Positions 13,954 through 21,605 of a stretch of 35,402 nucleotides of DNA are shown here, one piece after another (the first letter of the stretch is position 1; every line of letters starts with the position of its first letter). Where the stretch lies: the NCBI GenBank assembly GCA_031119295.1, contig JAVHYE010000006.1, positions 1 to 35,402 on the forward strand. The letters are read 5' to 3'. A model generated the notes under the pieces. The model had not been told where the DNA came from, did no database searches, and saw only the letters and a program-made list of their open reading frames with translations. Origin of the DNA: Pedobacter sp. (GTDB lineage: Bacteria > Pseudomonadota > Gammaproteobacteria > Pseudomonadales > Moraxellaceae). A program made the position numbers and the translations under genes.

Positions 13954-14190
13954 GTGAGCACTATCGAAGAACGGGTCAAGAAGATCGTTGCTGAACAGCT
14001 GGGTGTGAAGCTGGAAGACGTGACCAACGAAGCATCCTTCGTAGACGATCTGGGCGCCGATTCGCTCGACACCGTTGAACTGGTGATGGCTCTGGAAGAA
14101 GAGTTCGAACTCGAAATTCCTGACGAAGAAGCCGAAAAGATCAGCACGGTGCAAAACGCCATTGATTACATTGGCGCCAACAGCAAGTAA
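13954..14190 (+). CDS. acpP: Acyl carrier protein
   Basis: AcpP carries growing acyl chains on a 4'-phosphopantetheine arm for fatty acid, lipid A and phospholipid synthesis. The 78-residue acidic protein has the DSL motif ([18 protein letters not shown]) with Ser37 as the modified residue. The start is a GTG preceded by GAGGAG, a strong ribosome-binding site. Codon use is biased to C-ending and otherwise optimal codons, as expected for one of the most abundant proteins. It has its own promoter and an intrinsic terminator, so acpP probably also makes a short monocistronic message within the fab cluster. Confidence 0.98.
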
Positions 14191-16449: not shown

Positions 16450-18137
<1,688 letters not shown>

Positions 18138-18155
18138 GCCTGCCGGGTAAAAGCC

Positions 18156-19175
18156 ATGAGTGAAGAAGAGCGTCGCCCGACCTGGTCATTTCATCCCTAT
18201 GCCTGGCAGCACACGGTTTGGCAGAGGCTGGTTGATTTGGCAGAGAGTGGCCAGTTGCCGCATGCCCTCTTGATCAGCGGTCATGCCGGTATCGGCAAGG
18301 AAAGACTGGCCAGCGCTTTTGCGGCGCGTCTGCTGTGTCAGGCGCCTTCGCCGCAAGGCGGCTGTGGCAGTTGCAAGAGCTGCAATCTGCTGAATGCCGG
18401 TGTGCACCCCGATCTCATGTGGCTGGCACCAGAAACCGATGCCAAGACGGAAAAGACGGCGAAATTCATCAAGGTGGACCAAGTGCGCGAGCTGGTCGGC
18501 TTTGCCGAAAAATCGGCACAGCTGGGCGGCTATCGCGTGGTCATCATCACGCCGGCGCATCTGCTCAATGTGCAGGCGGCTAATGCCTTGCTGAAAACTC
18601 TGGAAGAGCCGGGCAGCCGTACCCTGATCCTGCTGGTGAGCTCGCAGCCCTTGAGTCTGCCTGCCACCATACGCAGCCGTTGCCAGCAACTGGCGCTGGA
18701 TATTCCTGCAGAAAAAGAAGCCCTGGCCTGGCTGCAGCCGCAATTGCGTGATGAAGCCACGGCGCGCCTGTTGCTGGCGCTAAGCGATGGTGCGCCGCTG
18801 GCGGCACTGCAATTGCGCGATGCCCTCTGGTTTGGCGAGCGTGAGCGTCTCCTGCGTGATCTTGGCAACCTGGGCGAAGGCAAGGCGACAGCACTGTCTG
18901 TGGCGCAGCGCTGGCAAGGACTGGGGGCCGAGGCTGTGTTGCCGGCACTGGCCAGCCTCACGGCAGATGTGGCGGTCGTGGCCAGTGGCGCCACAGTTGT
19001 CAAACACCAAGACCTCACGCCTATAATCACGGCTGTTGCGCGTCGGGTCAGTCCTGCAGCGGTCCTCGGTTTCCGCCAGGGTCTGATCGAGAAGCAGCGT
19101 CTCCTGGCTGGTAATGTGCAGGGGGCCGCTTTGCTGGATGCGGTTTTTTCAGAATGGGCCCGGATGAGCCGCTGA
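18156..19175 (+). CDS. holB: DNA polymerase III delta' subunit
   Basis: HolB is the delta' stator of the clamp-loader complex that places the beta clamp on DNA. This 339-residue AAA+ protein has a degenerate P-loop (GHAGIGKERLA). A zinc-binding cysteine cluster (CQAPSPQGGCGSCKSCNLLNAGVHPDL) follows, with spacing typical of HolB/DnaX. The SRC motif is in ATIRSRCQQ and the sensor region in NALLKTLEEPG. The 3' part of the gene carries a promoter-like element that may serve pilZ. It follows tmk closely and is probably translated from the same mRNA. Confidence 0.95.
   Translation: MSEEERRPTWSFHPYAWQHTVWQRLVDLAESGQLPHALLISGHAGIGKERLASAFAARLLCQAPSPQGGCGSCKSCNLLNAGVHPDLMWLAPETDAKTEKTAKFIKVDQVRELVGFAEKSAQLGGYRVVIITPAHLLNVQAANALLKTLEEPGSRTLILLVSSQPLSLPATIRSRCQQLALDIPAEKEALAWLQPQLRDEATARLLLALSDGAPLAALQLRDALWFGERERLLRDLGNLGEGKATALSVAQRWQGLGAEAVLPALASLTADVAVVASGATVVKHQDLTPIITAVARRVSPAAVLGFRQGLIEKQRLLAGNVQGAALLDAVFSEWARMSR
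18997..19027 (+). promoter_or_regulatory. Candidate internal promoter in holB for pilZ-tatD
   Basis: TTGTCA (5/6), a 19-bp spacer and a perfect TATAAT lie inside the end of holB, about 230 bases before pilZ. The long spacer is suboptimal, but the exact -10 in a GC-rich gene is notable. Confidence 0.45.
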
Positions 19176-19254
19176 TGCTCCGGGGCCCGCTGATTTCAGG
19201 GATGCGGCGCTAATGACGCCGGCACACACAGATCAAGAAGAGGCATAGACCCGA

Positions 19255-19599
19255 ATGAACATGCCCCGCGCTGGCGGTATCATCAATCAGGCCATCAAGG
19301 ACAAGGCCGCGCTTTATGCGTCCTTCATGCCTTTTGTGAAAGGTGGCGGGCTGTTCCTGCCCACCAATCGCCCCAGCAAGCTGGGTGAAGAAGTCTTTGT
19401 GCTGCTGACGCTGATGGATGATCCGGAGCGCATTCCGCTCACGGGCAAAGTCATCTGGATCAATTCCAAGCAGCAGGGCACGCGCCCGGCCGGTATCGGC
19501 ATACAGCTCACCGGTGAGGAGGGCGACAAGGCCAGACGCAAGATTGAAACTTATCTGGCCGGTGCACTGCAGGCCGACAGGCCTACTCATACGATGTAA
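19255..19599 (+). CDS. pilZ: PilZ-domain protein, type IV pilus assembly
   Basis: PilZ is the small cytoplasmic protein required for type IV pilus assembly in Pseudomonas, where it binds the PilB ATPase and FimX. This 114-residue protein consists almost entirely of one PilZ domain (FMPFVKGGGLFLPTNRPSKLGEEVFVLLTLMDD to GKVIWINSK and GIGIQLTGEEGDKARRKIE). As in the founding PilZ, the N-terminal RxxxR motif for c-di-GMP is missing, so it is probably a non-binding adaptor. It sits between holB and tatD, as in Pseudomonas. No other pilus gene is in the window. The GC hairpin ggccggc/gccggcc just after the stop lacks a good T-run. Confidence 0.93.
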   Translation: MNMPRAGGIINQAIKDKAALYASFMPFVKGGGLFLPTNRPSKLGEEVFVLLTLMDDPERIPLTGKVIWINSKQQGTRPAGIGIQLTGEEGDKARRKIETYLAGALQADRPTHTM

Positions 19600-19663: not shown

Positions 19664-20431
19664 ATGTTTATCGATTCACATTGCCATCTTGACCGTCTGG
19701 ATTTTGCTGCACTGGGCACAGATCTCGAAGGCGCTCTGCAAGCGGCGCGTGGTCGCGGTGTGCAGCATTTCCTTTGCATCGGTGTTGATCTGGAAAGCCT
19801 GCCGGATGTGCTGGCCGTGGCTGAAGCACACGGCGATGTATCGGCTTCGGTGGGCGTGCATCCCCTGCATCTGGAGTCACTGGAGCCGGAAATCGAAAAG
19901 CTGGTGGAGTTGGCTGCGCATCCCAAGGTCGTCGCCATCGGCGAGACCGGGCTGGACTATCACTACGACAAGGAAAGCCCGGCCGATCAGCAGCGCCGTT
20001 TCCGCAAGCATATCGAAGCGGCACGCCGCACCAACAAGCCGCTGGTGATCCATACGCGTGAAGCCAGAGCCGACACTATCGCCATCCTGAAAGAAGAGGG
20101 TGCTACTGCCGGCGTACTGCATTGCTTCACGGAGGATTGGGCTATGGCCAAGGCCGCTCTCGATCTCGGCTTTTATATTTCCTTCTCCGGCATCGTGAGC
20201 TTTGCCAATGCCAAGGAGCTGCGAGAGGTGGCAACGAAAGTGCCGCTGGACCGCATGCTGATAGAAACCGATTCCCCTTGGTTGGCCCCCGTGCCTTATC
20301 GCGGCAAGACCAACCAGCCAGCTTATGTGGTGGAAGTCGCCAAAACGATTGCCGGTTTGCGTGGCATGGACATCGAAGCACTGGGGGCTGCGACTTCGGA
20401 AAATTTCCGGCGCTTGTTCGGTGTGGGTTGA
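19664..20431 (+). CDS. tatD: TatD-family metal-dependent DNase
   Basis: TatD enzymes are cytoplasmic metal-dependent nucleases (3'-5' exonuclease or DNA repair/fragmentation roles reported) of the amidohydrolase fold. Metal ligands are visible in order: HxH in IDSHCHLD near residues 6-8, Glu in AIGETGLDYH, His in VIHTREA, His in LHCFTE and Asp in ETDSPWLAP. The length of 255 residues is typical. Despite its name, TatD is not needed for Tat export. It lies 64 bases after pilZ. Immediately downstream is a 538-base gap rich in hairpins and a likely small RNA gene on the opposite strand. Confidence 0.95.
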   Translation: MFIDSHCHLDRLDFAALGTDLEGALQAARGRGVQHFLCIGVDLESLPDVLAVAEAHGDVSASVGVHPLHLESLEPEIEKLVELAAHPKVVAIGETGLDYHYDKESPADQQRRFRKHIEAARRTNKPLVIHTREARADTIAILKEEGATAGVLHCFTEDWAMAKAALDLGFYISFSGIVSFANAKELREVATKVPLDRMLIETDSPWLAPVPYRGKTNQPAYVVEVAKTIAGLRGMDIEALGAATSENFRRLFGVG

Positions 20432-20515: not shown

Positions 20516-20638
20516 GGCGACACAGGGATGTGTCGCCATCGCAGCTGCATCACGCAGTGATGCAGCTGGCGGGAGCCTTGTACGGACCTGAGCCGGACAA
20601 GGCCTGGTCTGTATTTTTCAGGATGGAAAATACAGACC
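20516..20638. repeat. Cluster of four hairpins downstream of tatD
   Basis: Four stems lie side by side. They are ggcgacaca/tgtgtcgcc with a GGGA loop (20516-20537), the perfect 12-bp cagctgcatcac/gtgatgcagctg (20542-20568), gccttgt/acaaggc with an inner CGG/CCG extension (20575-20603), and the perfect 12-bp ggtctgtatttt/aaaatacagacc (20606-20638). Two loops contain CAGG(G)ATG. Together they look like a compound palindromic element of a dispersed-repeat type, but I cannot name the family. Confidence 0.6.
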
Positions 20639-20641
20639 CTG

Positions 20642-20678
20642 AATAAAAAGAACCCGGCGCCTGGGGGGGACACCGGGT
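20642..20678 (-). terminator. Intrinsic terminator of the candidate small RNA
   Basis: On the minus strand the stem acccggtgt/ggcgccgggt (9 pairs, two G-U) encloses the loop CCCCCCCAG and is followed by TTCTTTTTATT. The U-run lies only on this strand, so the transcript must run leftward. Confidence 0.75.
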
Positions 20679-20776
20679 CAAGACCAATCAGGGATGTTTC
20701 CTTCCTGGCCGGCTTGCGCCGACCAGCGTGCTATCCAGTATTGTCGAGATTGCCGGTTTCGCCAGTTTTGACTGGC
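20642..20776 (-). ncRNA. Candidate small RNA (RgsA/P16-like by position)
   Basis: Read on the minus strand, this stretch forms a 5' hairpin (GCCAGT-CAAA-ACTGGC) and a central 8-bp hairpin with a GCAA tetraloop (ggtcggc/gccggcc, 20706-20725). A purine-rich single-stranded stretch (ggaaggaaacatccctgattgg) and an intrinsic terminator with a C7 loop follow. Two promoter-like -10 elements lie on the minus strand: TAATAT (20780-20785), giving an RNA of about 130 nt, and CAATACT (20737-20743, similar to the RpoS-type CTATACT), giving about 90 nt. In P. aeruginosa I recall the regulatory RNA RgsA lying beside tatD; identity here is inferred from position and architecture, not from alignment. Confidence 0.5.
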
Positions 20777-20832
20777 GGCATATTAGATTGCTTTCGCATA
20801 ATGTTGTGACTGTGTTGCTATCAACCGGGATT

Positions 20833-20969: not shown

Positions 20970-21605
20970 ATGAGTGACTTGGCCAAGGCCACCCAGAAGG
21001 CACGGGAGTTTCGTCAGCGCGAGCAGTCCATTCTGGATTGTGCTCTGCAGTTGTTCATAGAGCAGGGCGAAGACAAGGTGACCGTGGAGATGATTGCCGA
21101 CAAGGTCGGTATCGGCAAAGGCACCATCTACAAGCACTTTGAAACCAAGAATGAAATCTATCTCCTGCTCATGATCCGTTATGAGGAAGAGCTGGCCGAT
21201 ATGTTCCGCCGTGTTGATACCTCGCAGGACAAGTCGGCGCTGGTGCGCGAATTCTTCCGCTTCCGTGTGCAGGATCCGGACAAATACCTGTTGTTTGATC
21301 GCCTGGAATCCAAGCTGGTGGCCGACAAGGCCATGCCGCAGTTGCTGGAAAAGCTGCACGCCATACGCCGCTCCAACTTCGACAAGCTGACCAGCATCGT
21401 GAAGGCCCGCATCGAAGAGAAGAAGCTGGCCGATGTGCCGCCCGAATATCACATCTGTGCCGCCTGGGCGCTGGCCCATGGTGCTTCCGCCCTGTGCAAG
21501 TCGGCTTTCTACAAGGATGTCATCAAGGACACGGATGCCTTCTTCGACTTCCTGCTGGGCGCCGGTGTACGCATGGGTAATCGTTCCCTGCACCAGGCTG
21601 ACTGA
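20970..21605 (+). CDS. TetR-family transcriptional regulator
   Basis: The start is ATG at 20970 (MSDLAKATQKAREFRQREQSIL), preceded by GAGGG; the track's earlier start lies in the leader. The N-terminal TetR HTH is clear: ILDCALQLFIEQGEDKVTVEMIADKVGIGKGTIYKHFETKNEIY, about residues 20-65. The C-terminal ligand domain is not specific enough to predict a ligand. The palindrome overlapping its own promoter suggests autoregulation. The syntenic Pseudomonas regulator (PA2957 from memory) also lies between tatD and the etf genes, so its targets may be fatty-acid or electron-transfer genes; that is inference. It ends in a good terminator. Confidence 0.92.
   Translation: MSDLAKATQKAREFRQREQSILDCALQLFIEQGEDKVTVEMIADKVGIGKGTIYKHFETKNEIYLLLMIRYEEELADMFRRVDTSQDKSALVREFFRFRVQDPDKYLLFDRLESKLVADKAMPQLLEKLHAIRRSNFDKLTSIVKARIEEKKLADVPPEYHICAAWALAHGASALCKSAFYKDVIKDTDAFFDFLLGAGVRMGNRSLHQAD

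Follow-up and report, generated by a model that had tools for sequence, protein, structure and literature searches.

C-rich stem loops that bind Shine-Dalgarno regions characterize a general class of small RNAs (sRNAs). The Pseudomonas sRNA RgsA (P16), 120 nt long, represses fis and acpP together with Hfq in P. aeruginosa (PMC8395346), where it also represses rpoS (PMC9308961). In the original report its gene adjoins tatD, and some strains have a TetR gene upstream of it (PMC2375449). RgsA is Gac-regulated in Pseudomonas, as are RsmX, RsmY and RsmZ, and it did not behave like these three RNAs on hcnA in P. fluorescens (PMC2375449). We found no report of RgsA outside Pseudomonas in the open-licence literature, which does not prove that such reports are absent. 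Judged from its sequence, the RNA encoded at a locus in a Moraxellaceae genome, within a contig stretch of 35,402 nucleotides that we refer to as the window, is this known sRNA in a diverged form with a changed seed region.

The genes around the locus are arranged in the order tmk-holB-pilZ-tatD-sRNA-tetR-etfB-etfA, with the sRNA on the minus strand, and the same order and orientation is found at many Pseudomonas loci. The tmk, holB and pilZ-type genes (17511-19599, plus strand) lie upstream of tatD in the order seen in Pseudomonas, and the tatD-type nuclease gene itself (19664-20431, plus strand) matches TIGR00010 with an E-value of 2.6e-87. As in Pseudomonas, the predicted sRNA (20645-20730, minus strand, approximately 86 nt with both ends predicted) is encoded beside tatD but on the other strand, with a tetR-type regulator gene (20970-21605, plus strand) on its far side. 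The tetR gene is its most constant neighbour in Moraxellaceae; in other genera of the family it remains beside the sRNA, with tatD not found nearby. The window also contains acpP (13957-14178, plus strand), which RgsA is known to target in P. aeruginosa, at a distance of about 6.5 kb from the sRNA. The interval between tatD and the sRNA contains four consecutive inverted repeats (20516-20638). The hairpin GGCGACACAGGGATGTGTCGCC downstream of tatD (20516-20537, plus strand) has a CACAGGGATGTG core resembling a CsrA/RsmA-binding hairpin, and 17 nt show a weak match (E 0.018) to the RsmV model. A 206-bp stretch here occurs once in the genome; the genus lacks a full match to it, and what matches in one genome (G004) is a 31-nt piece only.

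The preliminary description had proposed a divergent RgsA/P16 homologue beside tatD, outside the genus Pseudomonas, and this is borne out by the Rfam E-value, the gene order, a reciprocal model, compensatory changes and an RpoS-type promoter. The search with the Rfam RgsA model (RF00628) that it called for gave a minus-strand match at 20654-20815 (43.1 bits, E 7e-9, model positions 1-194), but this falls under the gathering score of 88.4 bits, a curator's threshold that is not in itself a biological feature. An Rfam scan of the whole window at the gathering threshold returned no matches. The match at this locus takes in the promoter region and the terminator, and it is the only one of the RgsA model at E≤1 in the whole 3.14-Mb draft genome. 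Related loci likewise match RgsA at this position, with 21-33 bits, so the copy in the window is among the better preserved ones. Two other Rfam matches on the sRNA strand near the locus, SorX and anti-hemB, had E-values above 1, lay far under their gathering scores and were rejected.

The reciprocal model (R1, 51 nt) was built from eight sequences of the Moraxellaceae family only, and it recovers the RgsA of Pseudomonas. It scores 74 bits against the sRNA in the window, by construction, and matches 70 of the 343 genomes of the order at E≤0.01. When 20 R1-matched loci, family members included, were scanned against Rfam, RgsA was found at E≤0.001 in 15, seven of which were over the gathering score (L041, L037, L032, L033, L018, L027 and L029) and eight at 38-65 bits. 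The weaker R1 matches (E near 0.001-0.01) include ordinary terminators and were not counted as members. A second R1 match in the genome of the window (contig 105, L063) was discarded as a terminator that lacks the C-loop. The terminator pattern TCTTRRCCCGNNNTCCCCCCCAGNNNNCGGG, searched in one genome per GTDB species, found 31 loci in Pseudomonas, Stutzerimonas and MAGs, and all 18 of the Pseudomonas and Stutzerimonas loci that were tested proved to be RgsA (122-199 bits). When the Rfam model was run against the whole class, no convincing match appeared beyond the order. These results suggest that the Rfam threshold for RgsA misses members in several families of the Pseudomonadales. An RgsA-like sRNA is also seen in a family other than that of Pseudomonas (L029-L031); at L029, which at 116.3 bits is over the gathering threshold, neither tatD nor tetR was found in the 3-kb locus. 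At a further locus (L011, genome G198), an RgsA relative scoring 87 bits has lost the C-rich loop from its terminator and kept one of CCCCCC in its 5' hairpin, which reverses the loop pattern of the window.

Upstream of the RNA, the element CAATACT (20737-20743, minus strand), which had been noted as close to the RpoS -10 consensus, aligns with CAAUACU of the RgsA consensus and is conserved in the family, whose members carry CAATACT, CTTAACT or CTTTACT. The -35-region element ACTGGC (20761-20766, minus strand) lies 17 nt ahead of it and is also in that consensus, and the putative RpoS-type promoter with its conserved upstream element, ACTGGC-N17-CAATACT, thus aligns with aCUGGA-N17-CAAUACU; the form ACTGGM-N17-CAATACT is common to the window and Pseudomonas RgsA. 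The -35-type element with the 17-nt spacing was found by pattern in 13 of 15 family members and by eye in a fourteenth (G003, GCTGGC-N17-CAATTAT). A TAATAT element also put forward upstream is not conserved among the relatives and was abandoned as a promoter element. The predicted start at about 20730 is 7 nt past the -10 element, the distance published for Pseudomonas. Of the three minus-strand hairpins described previously, all are present in the fold, but they do not form part of one RNA, since the upstream one (20776-20761) overlaps the -35 element and precedes the predicted start. ACTGGC is one arm of this hairpin and only that arm is conserved, and with the start at about 20730 the hairpin would be promoter DNA lying outside the RNA, of which it is no longer considered a part.

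The RNA ends in a rho-independent terminator hairpin (20651-20679, minus strand) of 11 pairs with the loop CCCCCCA (20662-20668) and a U5 run (20645-20649). The U-run is restricted to the minus strand, as had been stated; the hairpin read in the opposite direction is not followed by a T-run. The supposed C7 loop is C-rich but holds six Cs and an A, as the G of "CCCCCCCAG" closes the stem. The 87-nt stretch folds at -40.0 kcal/mol against a shuffle mean of -28.9 (z -3.2), with 1 of 200 shuffles as good. No other true terminator in a 255-kb sample of this genome carries five or more consecutive Cs in its loop; a second C-loop hairpin in this sample (L149) is inside a coding gene, ispE by sequence, and was rejected. 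Like the terminator of Pseudomonas RgsA, that of the window has a C-rich loop and carries UUGGUCUURACCCG.

Covariation of the hairpins in related genomes, proposed earlier as a check, was found for the terminator stem. Compensatory changes on both sides occur in 8 of its 11 pairs, and 94.9% of cells are paired in an alignment of 73 sequences (54 distinct) whose fitting to the model biases it toward the structure. None of 500 shuffles reached any of the five measures, and sliding the pairing partners by one base reduced the paired cells to 65%. Furthermore, RNAalifold yielded the same stem from structure-free MAFFT alignments. The terminator is the only hairpin that is a conserved structure in the relatives. 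The Cs of its loop and the A that follows are nearly invariant across the aligned sequences, and since a terminator has no need of a fixed loop, it is probable that the loop is under selection of its own. With the C-rich-loop class of sRNAs the RNA shares an unpaired run of Cs, placed in a stem loop and potentially able to pair with G-rich starts; in the window the loop belongs to the terminator.

The 5' half of the RNA is less well preserved. In the predicted fold, a hairpin with a GCAA loop (20705-20726, minus strand) occupies the position of the hairpin that has a C-rich loop in Pseudomonas RgsA. This central hairpin had been singled out for its tetraloop, and while it is present, neither sequence nor alifold indicates its conservation in the genus, so the tetraloop was dropped as a conserved feature or as having a role. 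The linker that follows (20680-20704, minus strand) ends in UUGGUCUU, a box whose type is common to Pseudomonas RgsA. The ACUCCU seed is not shared, and the window lacks the linker ACUCCUAAUGG, whose fit to the acpP start region is a property of the Pseudomonas members noted here rather than a published family criterion. The RNA thus differs from that of Pseudomonas in its predicted length, in the missing C-rich loop of the 5' hairpin and in the missing linker seed. It also differs from RsmX, RsmY and RsmZ, as it has no array of GGA hairpin loops; in the centroid structure predicted for the 86-nt RNA, none of the hairpin loops contains a GGA motif.

The predicted pairing with targets changes along with the linker. 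Pairing ranks were obtained from simple duplex energies that take no account of accessibility, against a background that was the same for every genome, namely gene starts from the genome of the window. Three Pseudomonas genomes served as the positive control, and their linkers ranked their own acpP start regions 1, 5 and 1 of 238, whereas the linkers of ten family genomes, that of the window included, ranked their own acpP 97-237 of 238. A shorter version of the linker ranked the window's acpP 47 of 238. The terminator loop ranked fis 25, 26 and 1 in three Pseudomonas genomes, and neither acpP nor fis is supported as a conserved target in most family genomes. Among the known targets, the best predicted partner of the loop is the rpoS start region, ranked 1, 1, 2, 24, 41, 45 and 88 of 238 in the seven family genomes in which an rpoS start was found; these exclude the window's own assembly, from which that start is missing at a contig edge. 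The best of these ranks reflect G runs in the Shine-Dalgarno region of rpoS. Since several segments and targets were tried against a one-genome background, single good ranks are weak and rpoS is to be read as a lead only. With the acpP linker seed replaced and the first C-rich loop gone, the C-loop of the terminator is the main candidate seed retained.

We consider it very probable that the trans-acting sRNA RgsA has a divergent orthologue in the minus-strand locus 20730-20645. The 5' half and linker are unconserved and much of the similarity lies in the terminator, as would be expected if an unrelated sRNA, RgsA-like in its terminator only, had arisen at the same site. This is quite unlikely given that address, strand, promoter element with its spacing, UUGGUCUU box and almost invariant loop all agree, and given that intermediate sequences connect the sRNA in the window with Pseudomonas RgsA. 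The position between tatD and tetR on the opposite strand, together with a linkage to tetR that persists in Moraxellaceae even without tatD nearby, would also suit a terminator or a cis-acting antisense element controlling one of these genes instead of a trans-acting sRNA. However, such an element is very unlikely: the predicted RNA does not extend into either coding region, RgsA-like matches occur in other families at several 3-kb loci where neither gene was found, and the conservation of promoter and loop favours a free RNA. It is extremely improbable that the locus is a decayed RgsA whose expression or function was lost in this lineage: the score is low, and neither the acpP seed nor the first C-rich loop survives, but throughout the genus, and in three further genera, promoter, loop and compensated stem have been retained.

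If the locus is indeed an RgsA orthologue, the stationary-phase factor RpoS would transcribe it from ACTGGC-N17-CAATACT, and the transcript of about 86 nt would stop at the C-loop terminator. With Hfq, the sRNA would then pair with G-rich Shine-Dalgarno regions and lower translation. Both rpoS and hfq are present in the genome. Because the acpP-fitting linker seed of Pseudomonas is not kept, the terminator loop would be the likeliest seed in the Moraxellaceae family, and a plausible target, as a lead and not a result, may be rpoS itself, in a feedback resembling that reported in P. aeruginosa.

Among 99 family genomes, sorted by hand from two tables, the sRNA (E≤1e-6) was found in 15, RpoS over the curated cut-off in 19 and both in 13. 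Of the remaining two sRNA genomes, one (G006) has a partial RpoS match and in the other (G011) none was found. Six genomes have RpoS and no confident sRNA match, two of these being incomplete, and there was no confident sRNA match in those genera of the 99 genomes that are without RpoS. Since this co-occurrence follows the tree, it may reflect few independent events. In G006, which has kept the sRNA, the RpoS match (contig 2, 320747-321280) spans only model positions 7-184 in an open frame of 264 aa and is possibly truncated. A broader history is tentative and, in our view, rather doubtful: RgsA would be old in the Pseudomonadales, the Moraxellaceae would have lost the linker seed, the terminator loop would silence rpoS, and the sRNA would have been lost where RpoS was lost.

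The identification of this locus as RgsA extends the range of the sRNA well beyond Pseudomonas. The parts kept over this long divergence are the RpoS-type promoter and the terminator loop, while the linker that fits acpP was not kept. Given these kept and lost parts, one can directly test which element of RgsA carries its essential function.
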